A DNA stretch of 64,000 nt. It comes from Nitrospirota bacterium (GTDB lineage: Bacteria; Nitrospirota; Leptospirillia; Leptospirillales; Leptospirillaceae). The notes under the pieces are model-generated. The model did not search any database. It had not been told where the DNA came from and saw only the letters and a list, made by a program, of their open reading frames with translations. Below, one piece after another: positions 1-36,880 of the stretch. Position 1 is the stretch's first letter. Each line of letters starts with the position of its first letter. The stretch covers positions 1 to 64,000 of the forward strand of contig DAHVAL010000005.1 of assembly GCA_027314645.1 (NCBI GenBank). Reading direction: 5' to 3'. Made by a program: the position numbers and the translations under genes.

Positions 1-230
1 ATCTGTGTCTTTTGCCGCTGACCCAGGACCAACGACACGATCTCCTCGAAATCCTCGAAGACCGCTGGGAGACCCGCTCCACCCTGGTCACCAGCCAGTA
101 TCCGGTCGACCTCTGGCACGAACGCCTTGGAGAGCCCACGCTGGCCGACGCCATTCTCGACCGGCTCGTCCACAACGCCTATACGATCACCCTCAAAGGA
201 GATTCCATGCGAAAACGACTCAAAGCTTGA
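1..230 (+). CDS. istB: IstB-like ATP-binding transposition helper, 3' end (partial)
   Basis: The C-terminal ~75 residues of an IS21-family helper ATPase, which assists the IstA transposase. The reading frame is open from base 3 and enters from outside the window, so this is a partial gene rather than a short one starting at the TTG at 12. The recognisable IstB ending is present: RRSTLVTSQ-like segment (here [17 protein letters not shown]), then [15 protein letters not shown] and GDSMRKR just before the TGA at 228-230. The Walker motifs would lie upstream of the window. Its neighbours on the right are a degraded sensor gene, which suggests this end of the window has been disturbed by insertion. 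Confidence 0.85.
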
Positions 231-610
231 CTCCTCTCGGGCGGAGGAGTAAAAACCGCTCTAGTATCCCTTAACAGGGAAACGGCCTCTGAGGAATCAA
301 AGGGGGGTCGCCATGGCAAGAATGCCTGTTCGCGATCCGGGAGACTAGGCGTTCGCCATGACGAGACTTTCCGTTCGTTTTTACGAGACTGAGCAATCCG
401 ATTGTAAATTTGCCCGGGAGACCATTGAGTGTCTGAGGGAGGACGAACGGAAAAAATCAATCAACGATAAGGAATGGGATGAGAGGGAGTAAATTCATTT
501 GTATTTATAATTGAAGGTGATTTAAGAAATTCTTTGATCGAACTCCAGCGAATGAAAAATTATTAATTGGAAAGGAGTGAAAGAACCTCTATGATTGTAT
601 TGGATCTTCG
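231..610. other. IS21 right flank and intergenic region
   Basis: No gene seen. The first ~200 bases after istB contain two imperfect copies of a TCGCCATG-containing motif (around 307-315 and 353-361), the sort of repeated end sequence IS21 elements carry. The exact terminal inverted repeat and target duplication cannot be set because the left end is outside the window. A TATAAT hexamer lies at 506-511 without a good -35, and AAAGGAG sits at about 571-577 ahead of the following degraded gene. Confidence 0.4.
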
Positions 611-1626
611 ATGAGGCTTCCGACAGTCCCTGCCGAAAAGGCTCGGCGTATGGCCTCGAGCCTGAAGTTTTCCGAAGAGGAGCTACAAAAACGCAAGAGA
701 TTTTTCGGTTGACCTTTGAAGAAGAAAAGGCGCTCTCTGGTCTTGTCCCATATTTTCAAGAGACTCTCCCTTCCTTTGCGGGACGCCTTCATGAACGGAT
801 CCGATCCTTCCCCGATCCCTCCCACATTCTCGCTAAAGTCCATTCACAGTCCTGGCTTCAGTTGCGTCATGCCGAAACGTTATCGAGCTCGTTTCTGGCC
901 GGTATGACAGCGAATATGTTCTCAGCAGATTTGCGGTTGGCATTTCCCATCATGAGCGTGGGCTCGCTTCTGAATGGGTCCAGGCCTCCTTTGGGTTGTT
1001 TCTTGAATGGGCTTTGCAGATCCTTTCGCAAGATCCGATTTCCCCTCGTTCACAGAATCCCGGCATTCCGGAAAACCTTGCAAAGACCACCCTTTTTGAT
1101 TTCGGCCAGGTCATGGATTCTAACTTCATGGCCGAAAGGGAGCATAAGGAGCTTCATTTTCGCCTTTTTGAAACCAATGCCGAAGCGGTTTGGATCTTCG
1201 ATTCAGGTTGGACCGTCCGCCACCCGAACCGGACTTCTGAAAAAATAACAGGTTGGACGCCTGTCCAAATTCAAGGAAGAGAATTGGGGGATTTCATCTC
1301 AGAGGAGCAAAAAGAGGCTCAGCCCCAGGGACCGGATGGCAGAAGTCGCCACAAAGGAAAGGCACAGGGAAGGAAAGCTTCTCCTTAAGCAGAAAGACGG
1401 AAAGAATTTTTCAAGTTGGGCGACGGTCACTCTTTGGGATGATGTTGCGGGGTCAGGATTCATTCTGGAGTTTCGTAATCCAATGTCCGAAAAGATGATT
1501 GACAATGAACTTCGTCTGCAGTCTCTCTCGGTCGCTCTGGATCAATGTACCAAGGTTGTGCGGGCGGTCGAGAATTTCTGGCTGACGATCGTTCAACTTC
1601 TCTGTACCGAAAAGACGGAGTCTTAA
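611..1626 (+). pseudogene. Globin-coupled PAS sensor, broken by three frameshifts
   Basis: Joining three frames rebuilds one protein: an N-terminal protoglobin (globin-coupled sensor) domain from ATG 611, then a PAS domain, ending at TAA 1624-1626. The first shift is at the T run near 699-703 (KRKRFF continuing as RLTFEEEKALSGL). The second is near 901 (SSSFLAG continuing as YDSEYVLSRFAVG, with a globin-like HHERGLASEW following). The third is in the C/G run near 1323-1330, after which RDRMAEVATKE resumes the PAS domain. Each shift is restored by one added base. The sequence after the PAS looks like the start of a second sensor domain that is cut off. It probably fed the adjacent response regulator. 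Three sequencing errors are an alternative explanation, though neighbouring genes are clean. Confidence 0.7.
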
Positions 1627-1630
1627 TTCT

Positions 1631-3760
1631 GTGATTGAGAGCAGTCTCGAAGTTCTTTTGGTCGAAGACAATCCGGGGGATGTCTTCCTGGTTGAGGAAA
1701 TGCTTCGATCCGCAGGTGAGTTTAGGATCGAACTCCGTTCAACCAACCGGATTTCAGAAGCACGGGGCATTCTAAGCGAAGCCGAGATCGATGCGGTCCT
1801 TCTCGATCTTGATCTCCCCGATGTCAATGGGTTGGAAACCCTCGAAAAAATTCAGAGAGATTTTCCCGAAGTCCCTATTGTGGTCCTCTCCTCGCTCCAG
1901 GATGAGGAAAAAGCGGTTCTAGCCATTCAGAACGGGGCGAAGGATTTTCTTGTCAAAGGGACCATCAACGGGCACCTTCTGAGCCGGTCGCTCTTTTATG
2001 CGATCAAGAGAAAGGAAATAGACTCCCATCTTTTTTACCTTGCCCATCACGACCCGCTTACCGGGGCATTTAACAGGAAATACTTCTATGACCTCCTCGA
2101 TCGTTTTCTCGAAAATCCGGACCGTGCAGAAAAACAAATTGCGGTGATCTTGATCGATCTTGTCAACTTCAGAGCGGTGAACGATACCTATGGTCAATCG
2201 GTGGGGGATGAGTTTCTCCTGTACGTGTCCAGAAAACTGCAGGAAATGACTCATGATGCTGGGATCGTTGCTCGTCTGGGGGGCGATGAATTTGCCATCG
2301 CGTTAGAGGGAATGACGGATACGGAGTCTCTTTCCCGGTTCGGAAATCATATCCTGGAGACCATGAGCCGGAGCCATGTCATTGATTCCAATGAAATTGA
2401 TCTTATGCTGTCTATCGGGGTGAGTCTCTCTCCTCCCGAGGGGACCTCGTCAGGCGAGCTTGTCCGCACAGCCGGAAGAGCGCTCCAATATTCTCGGGAG
2501 TCCGTTTCGGCGCTGCATTTTTTTTCCTCCTCCATGGACCAGGGTCTGAAAAATAGAAATGCCCTGAGGAGGGATTTTGCGCGATCACTTAAAAAGGGAG
2601 ATCTGGTCCTTTATTTTCAGCCCGTCGTCAACATTCGAACATGGTCCCTCGTGGGGACGGAGGCATTGGTTCGGTGGAATCATCCTGAAAAAGGACTCCT
2701 GCTTCCGGGTCGATTTCTTCCGGGGATTCAAGGGACAGAGCTGATTGTTTCGATGGGGGACTGGGTGATTGATACCGCCCTCCGGCATTTATCCCAATGG
2801 CTTGAGCAGGGGCTGCACCTCTCGATGAGCGTTAACGTCGAGCTGCTGCAACTGAGAAAACCCGATTTTGTAGCCCGTCTCGAAACCCTCCTCTCCCGCT
2901 ATCCTTCGGTTCCTCGTCATCTCCTTGAACTGGAGATCGTCGAAACATCCACTGCGGAAGACTTTCCAGGTTTGCCTGAGGTATTGCACCAGCTTCATTC
3001 TCTTGGAGTGCGGTTGGCGATCGATGATTTCGGAACCGGATATTCTTCCCTTTCCTACTTGAAGAATCTTCCAGTCGATATTTTGAAGATTGATCAGGGA
3101 TTTGTCATCGGGATGCGGAATAATCGGGAAAATTTAGCGATCATAGAAAGCATCGTCAGTTTGGCTCGAATTTTCGGTCGAGGAGTCGTCGCGGAAGGGA
3201 TGGAGGAAATGGAATACCTCCCTCTTCTCCGGAAGCTTGGATGCGATTATGCACAAGGAAACGCTCTTGGCCCTGCGATGTCGACGGTCGAATTCCTTCA
3301 TTGGAAAGAGAAATGGATTTCCGGAAGCACCTCTGAAAGTCTCCTTCCTGCTTCAAACCTGATCGAACTCTCCATTCTTTCGACGCAGGTGATGCATTTT
3401 TCCTGGATTCAACGGATCCTTTCGCTTGTCCAGAAATCCACCATTGCTCCTCTGACGTCCTTGGAGGAAGGAATGTTTTACGATCACCCTTTGCAGGGTT
3501 GGTATGCCCATGAAGGACCCGCCCGATACGGGAAAATTCCAGCCTTTCGCGAGCTCGACAATCTTTACAGGGAATTGCAAGATTTGGCGCAAAAGATGCT
3601 CCATAACATTCACGAGAAAAATTTGGTAGAAATGCATTATGATACTCATCGGATGCTGCTCTCGAAGGATTCTCTGCTTTCCCTGTATGGAACACTTCAA
3701 AAGGATGCGATCTTCCGCTCAATCCTTGACAGGAAGCCGGAAGGGAATGAAGGATTGTGA
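1631..3760 (+). CDS. Response regulator with GGDEF and EAL domains and CZB-like C-terminus
   Basis: Bifunctional-type cyclic di-GMP protein of 709 residues. REC domain at 5-120 with acidic pair E12-D13, phosphoacceptor D59 and K109. GGDEF domain at about 137-295 with an intact GGDEF at 217-221, so diguanylate cyclase activity is possible. EAL domain at about 320-565 with EAL at 344-346, ELEIVE and DDFGTG at 465-470, all needed for phosphodiesterase activity. The last ~110 residues resemble a chemoreceptor zinc-binding (CZB) domain seen at the end of some EAL proteins (MHFSW, then GWYAHEGPARYG and PAFREL), but the usual Cys and the HxxxH ligands are not kept. GTG start at 1631 with GGAG 10 bases upstream. 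It starts 4 bases after the degraded globin-PAS gene, which may have been its partner. Confidence 0.9.
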   Translation: MIESSLEVLLVEDNPGDVFLVEEMLRSAGEFRIELRSTNRISEARGILSEAEIDAVLLDLDLPDVNGLETLEKIQRDFPEVPIVVLSSLQDEEKAVLAIQNGAKDFLVKGTINGHLLSRSLFYAIKRKEIDSHLFYLAHHDPLTGAFNRKYFYDLLDRFLENPDRAEKQIAVILIDLVNFRAVNDTYGQSVGDEFLLYVSRKLQEMTHDAGIVARLGGDEFAIALEGMTDTESLSRFGNHILETMSRSHVIDSNEIDLMLSIGVSLSPPEGTSSGELVRTAGRALQYSRESVSALHFFSSSMDQGLKNRNALRRDFARSLKKGDLVLYFQPVVNIRTWSLVGTEALVRWNHPEKGLLLPGRFLPGIQGTELIVSMGDWVIDTALRHLSQWLEQGLHLSMSVNVELLQLRKPDFVARLETLLSRYPSVPRHLLELEIVETSTAEDFPGLPEVLHQLHSLGVRLAIDDFGTGYSSLSYLKNLPVDILKIDQGFVIGMRNNRENLAIIESIVSLARIFGRGVVAEGMEEMEYLPLLRKLGCDYAQGNALGPAMSTVEFLHWKEKWISGSTSESLLPASNLIELSILSTQVMHFSWIQRILSLVQKSTIAPLTSLEEGMFYDHPLQGWYAHEGPARYGKIPAFRELDNLYRELQDLAQKMLHNIHEKNLVEMHYDTHRMLLSKDSLLSLYGTLQKDAIFRSILDRKPEGNEGL

Positions 3761-8148: not shown

Positions 8149-8288
8149 CACAGAGCATGGGGCTCTATATAGGAAGCCTATCCGAAGAGGATTTAGGGGA
8201 TTCATAAGGGATTCGCCGCAAATATATCTTCTGACGGGCATTAACCCCATCATTTGTATCGACCATTGTTTCAACCGGAGGTATTCGC

Positions 8289-8489
8289 ATGGCAAAAGGT
8301 AAAGTCAAGTGGTTTAACGCTAACAAGGGTTACGGGTTCATCTCCCAGGAAAACGGAGAGGACATCTTTGTTCATTATTCCGCGATCCAAACCCAGGGAT
8401 TCAAGACCCTTGACGAGGGACAGTCTGTGGAGTTTGAGATTACTCAGGGACCGAAAGGACCGCAGGCAGCCAACGTCACCAAAGATTAA
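8289..8489 (+). CDS. Cold-shock domain protein (CspA family)
   Basis: Single cold-shock domain of 66 residues, the family's usual length, an RNA/ssDNA-binding chaperone. RNP1 (KGYGFI) and RNP2 (DIFVHY) motifs are intact after the canonical KGKVKWFN start. The ATG at 8289 has GGAGG 8 bases upstream. It forms a stand-alone unit with a perfect promoter, a long leader and a strong terminator, which implies high expression; whether it is induced by cold or is constitutive cannot be read from the sequence. Confidence 0.97.
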
Positions 8490-20858: not shown

Positions 20859-20868
20859 GAATAATCCG

Positions 20869-21738
20869 TCAGACCCCGGCCAGGTCGAGAATGGCCGGAA
20901 TTCGTTCTTCGGCTCCCACGGTCATGATATGAACTCCATTGACCATCGGAGAGACCGAGCGAATGGTTTCTGCCGCAATCCGAATCCCCTCCTCGATCCA
21001 TTCCTCGCTCCGGCAGGATTCCATGCGAGCGATCAGGGACGGGGGGACCCTGATCCCAGGGACTTTCTCATTGAGATACCGAGCCATGGCGGGGGATTTC
21101 AACAGGATGATCCCGCAAATGACAGGAACTCCAAAGGGGCGGGCAAAGTCCATGAATTCATCCAGCCGGTCCGCATCAAAGACGACCTGGGTTTGAAAGA
21201 ACCTGGCTCCTGCATCGAACTTTTCTTCGAAGCGTTTTTTTTCCGTTGCCAAGTCTCCTTCGGGAGAACTTGCGGCCCCTGGAAGAATATCAGTGGGTCC
21301 TGAAAGATCTTTTCCGGCGAGGTCGCTCCCTCCATTGAGGAGAGTGATCGCGCGAATCAGTTCCGGAGAGGAGATATCGAAGACCGGTTTTGAATCCGGG
21401 TGATCCCCGATTCCTGCGGGGTCACCGGAAAGGCAGAGAACCTGCTTAATGCCCAGAGAGGACATTCCGATGATGTCCGATTGAAGGGCCAGCCTGTTTC
21501 GATCCCTCAGGGTCAGCTGAACGATGGGATCGATGCCGATTCCCTTGAGATGGAGGCCCATGGCGAACGGGCACATCCTCATGACGGCCGTCTGATTGTC
21601 CGTCACATTCATTCCATGGATTCGTCCCTTAAGAGGGAGGATTTTTCTGAGAAGCCCCTCCACATCCGTTCCCTTTGGTGGGGAGCATTCGGCGGTAATC
21701 AGAAATTGTCTCTCAGAGAGGGCCTGGCGAAAGGTCAA
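20869..21738 (-). CDS. metF: Methylenetetrahydrofolate reductase
   Basis: Flavoprotein of 289 residues reducing 5,10-methylene-THF to 5-methyl-THF for methionine synthesis. TIM-barrel protein with ITAECSPPKGTD, HGMNVTDNQTA, LTLRDRNR (FAD/folate region), LCLSGDP and FFQTQVVFD. TTG start at 21738 with GAGGAG 8 bases upstream. 15 bases downstream of folD and 10 upstream of panB. Confidence 0.93.
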   Translation of the reverse strand: MTFRQALSERQFLITAECSPPKGTDVEGLLRKILPLKGRIHGMNVTDNQTAVMRMCPFAMGLHLKGIGIDPIVQLTLRDRNRLALQSDIIGMSSLGIKQVLCLSGDPAGIGDHPDSKPVFDISSPELIRAITLLNGGSDLAGKDLSGPTDILPGAASSPEGDLATEKKRFEEKFDAGARFFQTQVVFDADRLDEFMDFARPFGVPVICGIILLKSPAMARYLNEKVPGIRVPPSLIARMESCRSEEWIEEGIRIAAETIRSVSPMVNGVHIMTVGAEERIPAILDLAGV

Positions 21739-21753
21739 CGGATACTCCTCGAT

Positions 21754-22614
21754 CTATTTGATCAACCCGGTGTGATTTCTATAGGCATCGATCGTATTGT
21801 CCAGCAAAGTGGCGATTGTCATGGGGCCGATTCCGCCGGGAACAGGGGTGATTGCCCCGGCAACCTGGAGCGCATCCTCAAAGAGAACGTCGCCCTTTAG
21901 TTTTCCATCCAAACCTCTCGAAATTCCAACATCGATGACGGTGGCCCCTTGTTTGATAAATTCGCGTGTGATTGATTCCGGACGCCCCAGGGCGGCGACA
22001 AGGATGTCGGCCTGTCGGGTGATGTGAGGCAAATCGTGGGTCTTGCTGTGACAGATAGTGACGGTGGCGTCCCTGTTCAACAGGAGGAGTGCCATGGGTT
22101 TTCCGACAATCAAGCTGCGTCCGACGATGACCGCGTGTGTTCCTGAAATGGGGATATGGGAACGGTCGAGAAGTGTGATGATCCCACGCGGGGTACAGGC
22201 GACGAGGCCGGGTTCTCCTGCGACCAGTCGTCCCAGATTTGCGGGATGAAACCCGTCAACATCCTTGTCAGGGGAGATTTTTAAGAGCACCTGTTCTTTG
22301 GATACCTGCGGAGGAAGAGGCAACTGGACAAGAATGCCATCGATTGCCGGGTCCCGGTTGAACCCGTCGATCGTTTCAAGAACCGCTTCGGTGGACGAGG
22401 AGGCGGGAAGGTTGATGTCTGGCGCGTAGATTCCAACGCGGTGGCAAGCCTTCCGCTTATTGGACACATAGGTATGGCTCGCCGGGTCTTCTCCGACGAG
22501 AATGACCGCCAACCCTGGAGGCCGACCGGCCTTTGGCGAAAGGGATTGAACTTTCTCTGCCTGCTCCTCATGAATCAGGGAAGCAAGGGATTTCCCGTCC
22601 AGAATCTCTGCCAT
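21754..22614 (-). CDS. folD: Methylenetetrahydrofolate dehydrogenase / cyclohydrolase
   Basis: Bifunctional enzyme of 286 residues interconverting methylene-, methenyl- and 10-formyl-THF. YVSNKRKACHRVGI carries the catalytic Lys, then DGILVQLPLP, SPDKDVDGFHP, the NADP-binding VIVGRSLIVGKPMALLLL and TPVPGGIGPMTIA. ATG 22614 fits the family start (AEILDGK); a TTG nine codons earlier is less likely. Leads the operon folD-metF-panB-chaC-xthA, in which the first three share methylene-THF. Confidence 0.96.
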   Translation of the reverse strand: MAEILDGKSLASLIHEEQAEKVQSLSPKAGRPPGLAVILVGEDPASHTYVSNKRKACHRVGIYAPDINLPASSSTEAVLETIDGFNRDPAIDGILVQLPLPPQVSKEQVLLKISPDKDVDGFHPANLGRLVAGEPGLVACTPRGIITLLDRSHIPISGTHAVIVGRSLIVGKPMALLLLNRDATVTICHSKTHDLPHITRQADILVAALGRPESITREFIKQGATVIDVGISRGLDGKLKGDVLFEDALQVAGAITPVPGGIGPMTIATLLDNTIDAYRNHTGLIK

Positions 22615-22829
22615 TGATTCCAATCCTTTCAAAATGTCCAACCTTCAAATGATTTCCTCGCTCAGAATAGCCCATCGCCCTCCGATTATTCAAGGTTGCG
22701 ACGCTTGAATTCTTTCGGAAATCTTGATTTTCACGGAGAGCAAATCATAAAAAAGAACTTTGAATTTTTATCAAGATTAAAATGAAGAACGGATATTTTT
22801 CCCCGGAATAGGGAGGGCGGAGTCACATC

Positions 22830-23777
22830 ATGTCGCATGACATCAACGTCAACCGATGGACCTCGTTCCCTCGTTCCGGTCCTTCGCGTCTACGCTTCGG
22901 AATGTTGTTGGTTGTGGCTTCCGCCATCGGCTTTGCCGCCAAGGGAATCTTGGCGAAGCTCGCCTATCAGCTGGGGCTCAACGCCTCCACAGTCCTTTCA
23001 CTGCGGATGATATCCGTTCTTCCGATCTATTGTGCGGGGCTCTTTTTTTTCGGCCGCTCTCTTCCCGAATCCAGGCCGGGGCCAACCAATCTGGATTTTT
23101 GGAAGGTTGTCGTTTTAGGGCTCCTTGGATTTGATATTTCAGCGCTCCTTGATTTTGAGGGGCTCGAATATATCGGAGCCGGACTCGAACGGCTTGTCCT
23201 TTTTCTGTATCCGACGTTCGTGGTGTTATTGTCTGCGCTTCTTGCCAGACGCCGCATTGCCTTAAGGGAAATTTTGGCGACCCTTTTGGCCTATGCGGGA
23301 TTGGCGACGATGACGTTTGCCGGGGGTAAAATCGCCCCCGATGCCAGAGTAGGAATCCTCTTGGTCTTGGGGAGCGGGGTATTTTATGCGGTGTATCTTG
23401 TGGGTGTGGAACAGGTTTTGAGAAGGGTCAATCCCCTGTACCTGACCTCCCTTGTGATGGTCGTAGCCACGGGGGCCATTCTTCTCCAGGCACTGGTTTC
23501 AGGGAGATTTCGCCTGGATCATTTCGATGGAAAGGCGCTCCTCATCCTTCTTGCGATGGGAATCTTTTCGACGGCCCTTCCCACGTTTTTCATGACCGTG
23601 GGGATTTCCATGATCGGAGCGAACCGGGCCGCACTCGTCTCATTCATGGGACCGGTCGTGACCTTGATAATGGCCGCTCTGTTCCTGGGTGAGACAATGA
23701 GTGTCAAGGAAGGATTGGGAGGTTTATTGGTTTTCCTGGGAGTCGGGTTCGTCGCGTTCAGGGGGCGGGGCGAATAG
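22830..23777 (+). CDS. EamA/DMT-family transporter
   Basis: Inner-membrane drug/metabolite transporter of 315 residues with about ten hydrophobic spans and two EamA halves (first from GMLLVVASAIGFAAKGILAK, second from VGILLVLGSGVFYAVYL). The substrate is unknown. ATG 22830 has GGAG 8 bases upstream. Divergent from folD; a plausible promoter (TTGATT, 16-base gap, CATAAA) lies at about 22720-22750. Its stop is one base from the folE stop, which converges. Confidence 0.88.
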   Translation: MSHDINVNRWTSFPRSGPSRLRFGMLLVVASAIGFAAKGILAKLAYQLGLNASTVLSLRMISVLPIYCAGLFFFGRSLPESRPGPTNLDFWKVVVLGLLGFDISALLDFEGLEYIGAGLERLVLFLYPTFVVLLSALLARRRIALREILATLLAYAGLATMTFAGGKIAPDARVGILLVLGSGVFYAVYLVGVEQVLRRVNPLYLTSLVMVVATGAILLQALVSGRFRLDHFDGKALLILLAMGIFSTALPTFFMTVGISMIGANRAALVSFMGPVVTLIMAALFLGETMSVKEGLGGLLVFLGVGFVAFRGRGE

Positions 23778-34929: not shown

Positions 34930-34973
34930 GTCGAGACACACAGAATTTCCAATCAAAAGAGGAAGGGCGAGCG

Positions 34974-35729
34974 TTGTCGGGTCATTCGAAGTGGGCCACA
35001 ACCAAACACAAAAAAGCTCTCATAGATTCCAAGAGAGGCAAAGTCTTTACGCGGCTTTCAAAGGAAATATCGATCGCTGCACGTCTTGGGGGGGGTGATC
35101 CTGATGGCAACCCCCGTCTTCGGACCGCCATTTCAAAGGCGAGAGAAGAAAACATGCCGATGGACAACATCAAAAAAGCCATTCAAAAGGGAACCGGGGA
35201 AATCCCTGGGGCGGTCTATGAAGAATTGCAGTACGAAGGGCATGGGCCAAAAGGTGTCGCCATCCTCCTGAAGGTCACCACCGACAACAAAAACCGAACT
35301 CTTCCGGAGATCCGTTCCATTCTATCGAAAAATGGAGGCGCCCTGGGGGAAAACGGTTGCGTGTCCTGGATGTTTGATCAGAAAGGGCTGATCACCACAC
35401 CCGTTTCCGGAGTCTCGGAAGACCGTCTTATGGAAATCGTCCTGAACGCGGGCGGGGAAGATGTGCGCCAGGAGGACGACTCCTTTGAGGTGGTCACTCA
35501 GCCCAAGGACTTTCACGCCGTTCTGGAGGCCATCCATAACGCGGGATTGTCGACCCCCTTTGCCGAGGTGACGATGATTCCTCAAGTGACCGTCCCTCTG
35601 GAAGGGAAAGATGCACAGACCATGGTCCGCCTCATGGAGGCCCTCGAGGACCATGATGATGTCCAGCATGCCTACGCGAACTTCGACATTCCCTCCGAGG
35701 TGCTCGAATCCCTCTCCCAGGAACCATAA
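34974..35729 (+). CDS. yebC: YebC/PmpR-family regulator / translation factor
   Basis: YebC-type protein of 251 residues, normal length. Starts SGHSKWATTKHKKALID, then KVFTRLSKEI, GGDPDGNPRLRTAISKARE, MPMDNIKKAIQKG and YEGHGPKGVA. Family members act as DNA-binding regulators and some relieve ribosome stalling. TTG start at 34974 is fixed by the invariant N-terminus and GGAAGG upstream. Usually next to ruvC; here it heads the aromatic amino acid genes. Confidence 0.96.
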   Translation: MSGHSKWATTKHKKALIDSKRGKVFTRLSKEISIAARLGGGDPDGNPRLRTAISKAREENMPMDNIKKAIQKGTGEIPGAVYEELQYEGHGPKGVAILLKVTTDNKNRTLPEIRSILSKNGGALGENGCVSWMFDQKGLITTPVSGVSEDRLMEIVLNAGGEDVRQEDDSFEVVTQPKDFHAVLEAIHNAGLSTPFAEVTMIPQVTVPLEGKDAQTMVRLMEALEDHDDVQHAYANFDIPSEVLESLSQEP

Positions 35730-35737
35730 GCCACCCG

Positions 35738-36880
35738 ATGACTCCTCCTGATAAACCCCACGACATTTCAAGCTTGCGCGAAGCAATCGATGGCATCGAC
35801 CAAAAGATCGTCTCCCTTCTCCGCGACCGGGCGAAAATCGCCCATCAGGTTGGAGCCTTCAAGAAGGAACGGGGACTCCCGTTTCACGTCATCTCTCGGG
35901 AACAGGAGATTTTTGATCGTCTGGAAAATGTGGACATCGCCCCTTTCCCGCGTCCGGTCCTGAAGCATATTTTCCGGGAGATCCTCTCCGCCTGTCTTTC
36001 CTTGGAAGAGCCGCTTGTCGTCGCATATCTCGGTCCTCCGGCCTCCTATACCCATCAAGCCTCCCTCAAATACTTCGGGACCTCCTCCAGACATTTGTCG
36101 ATGTCCACGGTTCGGGAAGTCTTTCGATGCGTGGAACGCAAGGAAGCGACCTATGGGGTCGTTCCCATCGAAAATTCCACGGAAGGAATGGTGAATTACA
36201 CGTTGGACACACTTGTGGAAACGGATCTCAAGATCAACGGTGAGGTGGTTCTTCCGATCCATCACTGCCTCCTGAGCCGAGCGGAGGAGATCAGCCATAT
36301 CCGGACCGTGTTCGCCCATCCACAATCATTGGCCCAATGCCGCGGGTTCCTTTCCCACTATTTGCCCAATGTGCCGACGGTCGAGACCACAAGCAATACC
36401 CGCGCGGTCGAATTGGCTCTTCAGGACGAACTGCAATCCGCCGCGATTGCCGGGGAAATGGCCGCTGAAGTCTACAATATGCCGATCATGAGACGTCATA
36501 TCGAAGACCAGCAGGACAACCAGACACGCTTTCTTGTCATCGGGGAAGGCATTCCCGATCCCACCTCTCATGACCAGACCTCGCTCATGGTGTCCATCAT
36601 AGATCGCGTCGGCGCCCTCTCCTCCATTCTGGAGCTTATCGCGGTTCACAACGTGAACTTGACCCGTCTTGAAAGTCGGCCCTCCAAGAAAAAGGCCTGG
36701 GACTATATCTTTTTCATGGATCTGGAGGGGCACCAGAAAGATCCGCACATTCAGACGTTGCTGGGAAAATTACAAGCCCTTTGTCCTTATGTTAAGATTT
36801 TAGGATCTTATCCGGTTTCAGAACAAAAAAGACGGTCTGGACATGGACAGGGGACCCCTCCCGCCGGAGACCGGGGCTAA
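35738..36880 (+). CDS. pheA: Bifunctional chorismate mutase / prephenate dehydratase
   Basis: P-protein of 380 residues for phenylalanine synthesis. N-terminal AroQ chorismate mutase (about 10-90, LREAIDGIDQKIVSLLRDR), prephenate dehydratase (about 95-275, AYLGPPASYTHQAS, VPIENSTEGMVNYTLD, NQTRFLVIG with the catalytic Thr) and a C-terminal ACT regulatory domain (SLMVSIIDRVGALSSIL, LTRLESRPSKK), the site of phenylalanine feedback. Eight bases after yebC. Confidence 0.97.
   Translation: MTPPDKPHDISSLREAIDGIDQKIVSLLRDRAKIAHQVGAFKKERGLPFHVISREQEIFDRLENVDIAPFPRPVLKHIFREILSACLSLEEPLVVAYLGPPASYTHQASLKYFGTSSRHLSMSTVREVFRCVERKEATYGVVPIENSTEGMVNYTLDTLVETDLKINGEVVLPIHHCLLSRAEEISHIRTVFAHPQSLAQCRGFLSHYLPNVPTVETTSNTRAVELALQDELQSAAIAGEMAAEVYNMPIMRRHIEDQQDNQTRFLVIGEGIPDPTSHDQTSLMVSIIDRVGALSSILELIAVHNVNLTRLESRPSKKKAWDYIFFMDLEGHQKDPHIQTLLGKLQALCPYVKILGSYPVSEQKRRSGHGQGTPPAGDRG

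Follow-up and report, generated by a model that had tools for sequence, protein, structure and literature searches.

Sensor globins use bound haem to signal a gas ligand or the redox state, and in sensor kinases the kinase phosphorylates a receiver. A described example is AfGcHK of Anaeromyxobacter sp. Fw109-5, which in the published account is a globin plus a kinase, the globin controlling autophosphorylation and phosphoryl transfer to the cognate response regulator (PMC8697598). The first gene of the locus analyzed here (gene A), where it is intact, resembles AfGcHK in combining an N-terminal sensor globin with a C-terminal histidine kinase, and its globin part weakly matched the AfGcHK chain 5ohe (E 0.011). 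It differs from AfGcHK in carrying a PAS domain between globin and kinase and in being followed downstream by a gene for a REC-GGDEF-EAL protein (gene C); the copy studied here lacks the kinase altogether. A second likeness is to bacteriophytochrome-type kinases with single-domain regulators. The best solved matches of the gene A kinase part include the histidine kinase 8f71 and the bacteriophytochromes 8sgk and 8avv, and a lone receiver (gene B), presumably an Rcp1-like response regulator, lies directly behind the kinase, although the sensor of gene A is a globin-PAS module and not a phytochrome. Gene C itself has the three domains of REC-GGDEF-EAL response regulators over cut-off and in the same order, but the genome studied here has lost its presumed kinase. 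The decay reported here belongs to an already known type of signalling system.

The locus was compared with stretches from 14 related genomes, in which the gene order is A (globin-PAS-HisKA-HATPase sensor kinase), B (single-domain response regulator), and C. As the initial annotation had proposed, intact orthologues were looked for and found: 10 of the 13 other genomes of the same genus carry gene A, and the same ten carry B and C, with A cut by a contig end in G011 and C split over two frames in G006. The split copy in G006 (L094, G006:C52; matches at 21023-22435 and 22441-23154) is possibly an independent break or an error. No orthologues of A, B, or C, only distant paralogues, were detected in the remaining three same-genus drafts (G005, G007, and G008; 71-81% complete), which corresponds either to loss of the whole locus or to missing contigs. 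Gene A mostly encodes 541-580 aa (658 in G002, 608 in G017, cut short in G011). In the two proteins scanned with Pfam (G009 and G013), Protoglobin (92.7 and 97.8 bits; cut-off 25), PAS, HisKA (42.8 and 40.2 bits), and HATPase_c (104.6 and 100.5 bits) were found. The best solved matches of the globin part were the sensor globins 2w31, 8h17, 1or4, and 5ohe, and a conserved histidine (VGI.HQ..GL), which we take to be the proximal haem ligand, aligns to a histidine in these structures. Intact gene A putatively binds haem and would have gas-dependent kinase activity. Gene B encodes a stand-alone receiver of some 150-158 aa; in G017 our script called no separate frame for it, yet its C-terminal motif is present.

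The window, i.e. the whole stretch of 64,000 nucleotides analyzed, lies at the start of contig C55, which is 100,418 bases long, window base 1 being contig base 1. The source assembly is a 2.04 Mb draft in 69 contigs with 95% completeness. It is the only genome sampled for its species, so that the lesions described may not be fixed in the species. No single frame spans positions 611-1626, and this stretch is the remnant of two genes, the globin sensor kinase A and its small partner regulator B. The features are as follows:

3..230, plus strand: IS21 element, C-terminus of its IstB, with the contig start lying inside (E 6e-22 to Pfam IstB_IS21, covering profile positions 164-235 of 238)
611..709, plus strand: gene A remnant, N-terminus ahead of the globin core, frame 2 (tblastn of intact relatives, alignment)
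712..876, plus strand: gene A remnant in frame 1 with the first globin half (tblastn, alignment)
882..1295, plus strand: gene A remnant in frame 3 with the second globin half and the earlier part of PAS (Protoglobin and PAS profiles, tblastn, alignment)
1348..1515, plus strand: gene A remnant in frame 1 with the later part of PAS and the linker (tblastn to 1524, alignment)
1516..1540, plus strand: deletion junction, about 1.1 kb lost (spacing in 14 relatives, DNA comparison)
1528..1626, plus strand: gene B remnant, last ~33 codons and stop of a single-domain response regulator (frame 1 match to the gene B C-terminus)
1631..3760, plus strand: gene C, intact REC-GGDEF-EAL protein of 709 aa with GTG start (Pfam Response_reg, GGDEF, and EAL over cut-off)

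In tblastn searches, gene A of intact relatives matched the window as four colinear pieces in frames 2, 1, 3, and 1 (593-709, 688-876, 882-1337, and 1327-1524, respectively), which rules out chance open frames. Three frame changes separate these pieces: (i) lesion 1 is a shift within about 701-711, in or beside a T run; (ii) lesion 2 is a shift within 877-881, bounded by the residues RHAE (ending at 876) and IELVSG (starting at 882), with no long homopolymer at the site; and (iii) lesion 3 is a change from frame 3 to frame 1 within a variable stretch at about 1296-1347, which permits no finer placement. As the latter requires a net gain of one base or a net loss of two, it is not a single-base loss. 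The initial annotation had read the stretch as three frames disrupted by three single-base losses. The three frame changes are real and the T run is confirmed as the place of the first or its direct neighbor, but the third lesion does not fit one lost base, and the second had been placed at 895-905, some 20 bases from its true site.

The frame-3 piece passed the Pfam cut-off for Protoglobin (27.5 versus 25 bits), and its best PAS match fell slightly below the cut-off (21.7 versus 22.6 bits). The position of the globin histidine is kept. To this extent the proposed protoglobin-PAS identity holds, although the ancestor was a sensor histidine kinase. Against the intact architecture of globin and kinase in one open frame, the window copy shows three frame changes and lacks HisKA and HATPase_c.

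The main lesion, absent from the earlier reading, is a deletion of about 1.1 kb at approximately 1516-1540. It was first suggested by a DNA search with window positions 560-1700 against 41 genomes (the own genome and 40 relatives; 18 of the 41 matched), in which the match in several same-genus genomes fell into two blocks whose separation exceeded that in the window by ~1.1 kb. Recognisable gene A sequence ends at ~1515, after PAS, and similarity resumes at 1528-1626 with the end of gene B. Two anchors are 36 bases apart in the window and 1,106-1,184 in the 14 relatives, so that 1,070-1,148 bp are missing by this measure, or 1,109-1,139 bp relative to the ten same-genus genomes. The deletion takes HisKA, HATPase_c, and nearly the whole gene B receiver. 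At the junction, CCGGTCG is shared in some relatives by gene A (G013, CTCCGGTCG) and gene B (G004, G012, G006, and G014, CCGGTCGA), while the window reads TCGGTCG; this microhomology hints at a deletion between short repeats, though it is no proof of one.

What remains of gene B is 55% identical over 33 residues (residues 123-155), i.e. about the last 33 codons without a complete receiver domain. The remnant stop (1624-1626) lies 4 bases before gene C, and since the gap between B and C in G009 is the same, the tail is that of gene B. A sensor ending at 1626 is thereby rejected, and with it the view that 611-1626 is one sensor gene. The 4-base distance to an intact REC-GGDEF-EAL gene had been noted correctly: gene C starts with GTG at 1631, and its three domains, with the motifs LLDLDL, GGDEF, EALVRW, and DDFGTGYSS, lie in one open frame. 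Gene C in the window is thus an orphan of its presumed kinase. A search of the own genome found no second copy of A or B, and a second intact copy was rejected on this basis.

Taken together, the window locus is very probably a genuine pseudogene pair, in which three frame changes, together with the loss of ~1.1 kb, have inactivated A and B beside a mobile element, with gene C intact. The lesions, the deletion, the intact relatives, and the intact gene C are demonstrated. The initial annotation had named a sequencing artefact as the main rival, i.e. that base errors, perhaps with misassembly, break an operon that is in fact intact. Such errors could be expected from the position of lesion 1 in or beside a T run and from a draft genome of 69 contigs known here from the assembly alone. 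However, lesion 2 lies away from any long homopolymer, and base errors do not remove 1.1 kb, an argument that holds even if all frame shifts were wrong. The rest of the window was also checked for frame breaks and inner stops, using 48 orthologue rows (~46.6 kb) from beyond the broken stretch, among them gene C; it is mostly colinear with relatives, chiefly with contig C40 of G009. No frame break was found in 43 of the 48 rows. The five flagged rows comprise an N-terminally partial match (8262-8486), two antisense frames that oppose open frames (20867-21076 and 34962-35744), and two cases in which a 5′ extension runs over the upstream gene (35711 and 37217), and are read as ORF-calling effects rather than lesions. 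Three frame changes within ~1 kb, as opposed to none established in ~47 kb, together with the deletion, speak for true decay; sequencing error was rejected on the deletion and the clean remainder of the window, and an artefact of assembly or sequencing is largely excluded and very unlikely.

To what extent gene A has evolved under relaxed constraint was assessed with invariant columns and trees, leaving aside G011 (gene A cut), G006, and G017. Among columns invariant in 11 relatives, 12 of 75 were changed in the window for gene A and 14 of 191 for gene C (Fisher p 0.04). The A/C ratio of branch lengths was 1.59 for the window and 1.20 for the whole tree, with similar ratios on other branches (G015, 1.67; G014, 1.72); G014 is distant and weighs heavily in both tests. 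Gene A alone placed the window on a different branch (61% support). These signals are modest and suggest relaxed constraint on gene A. Within the remnant, the coding pattern is kept, with codon positions 1 and 2 differing less than position 3, so that the loss probably postdates the divergence from the relatives. With each of the nine relatives compared, third positions show 55-65% difference, and synonymous sites this diverged leave the loss undatable. The earlier description of the loss as recent consequently finds weak support in the coding-like remnant, and no date can be put to it.

An IS21 element had been noted nearby, in agreement with the istB end at 3..230. In G009, a divergent gene that we presume, from its sequence, to be phosphoketolase-like lies upstream of gene A. 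Its orthologue in the own genome is located on contig C6, ~1.9 kb from the contig end. C6 ends inside a 379-codon open frame, presumably IstA of IS21, and the window begins inside istB. The simplest reading is that one IS21 copy lies between the phosphoketolase-like gene and gene A and that the assembly is broken inside it, although the join itself is inferred. No match was obtained for window positions 1-640 in the intergenic DNA of six relatives. We also observed a short repeat, in which window positions 299-377 are 78% alike to G000:C6:44532-44609 (in L131, G000:C6:42000-45824) in opposite orientation; it flanks the inferred IS21 position on both sides, and further partial copies occur on C6. 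The data give no sign that IS21 caused the loss, and the insertion may have preceded or followed the lesions.

The ancestral locus most probably encoded, in this order, the globin-PAS-histidine kinase A, the single-domain response regulator B, and the REC-GGDEF-EAL protein C. Conserved gene order and the example of AfGcHK suggest that kinase A controlled gene C: it would phosphorylate either B or the receiver of C, or both of them, and C, with putative cyclase or phosphodiesterase activity under receiver phosphorylation, would then alter c-di-GMP. Kinase and regulator were abolished by the three frame shifts together with the ~1.1 kb deletion, which starts directly behind PAS and reaches into the final part of gene B. 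The IS21 copy upstream probably separates gene A from its usual divergent neighbor, and gene C persists intact without its presumed kinase. Phosphotransfer, the sensed ligand, and neutrality of the loss are what we infer beyond the observations. The initial annotation had suggested loss of gas sensing upstream of c-di-GMP signalling. That a globin sensor was lost next to a c-di-GMP gene is indeed supported, but as a general statement the suggestion is too strong, because control of C by A is deduced from gene order and an intact PAS-GGDEF-globin-GAF-EAL protein of 1106 aa, the sole other Protoglobin match in the genome, remains on contig C25 (L128:878-4198). Gas sensing for c-di-GMP therefore need not be lost, and globin-linked control may persist in this genome through the C25 protein. 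Many similar long proteins occur in several relatives, and G002 and G004 have nine Protoglobin matches each.

Whether the loss was itself advantageous is a separate matter. Removal of kinase and regulator could have been selected because it released gene C from control by oxygen or redox state, and gene C is intact with all motifs in the same genome that lost A and B. However, no feature separates this from neutral loss in what is a single lineage, and the three same-genus drafts without A, B, and C fit plain dispensability equally; we give selected loss very little probability. A broader version is likewise unlikely: that with the joint loss of A and B this lineage disconnected c-di-GMP output from a conserved oxygen/redox phosphorelay, the REC-GGDEF-EAL enzyme being kept under selection and now unphosphorylated or fed by another kinase. 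If true, it would be a natural rewiring experiment in which such a phosphorelay was cut from its output. That the remnant still yields a useful product, e.g. a short globin or PAS fragment, is extremely improbable despite the kept coding pattern and globin histidine, as lesion 2 cuts the globin domain mid-way and no single frame covers globin or PAS.

Among titles on globin-coupled sensor pseudogenes and on c-di-GMP and globins in Leptospirillum, none concerned this locus. The decay of A and B is in itself ordinary, because decay of signalling genes is common. What changes is the reading of the locus: a globin-PAS-kinase, response regulator, and REC-GGDEF-EAL set is conserved in the group, and the window genome has lost the first two. 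The intact gene set of the relatives is the more useful part of the finding. It offers a testable route from a globin sensor through phosphotransfer to c-di-GMP, for which the window organism would serve as a natural kinase-less comparison.
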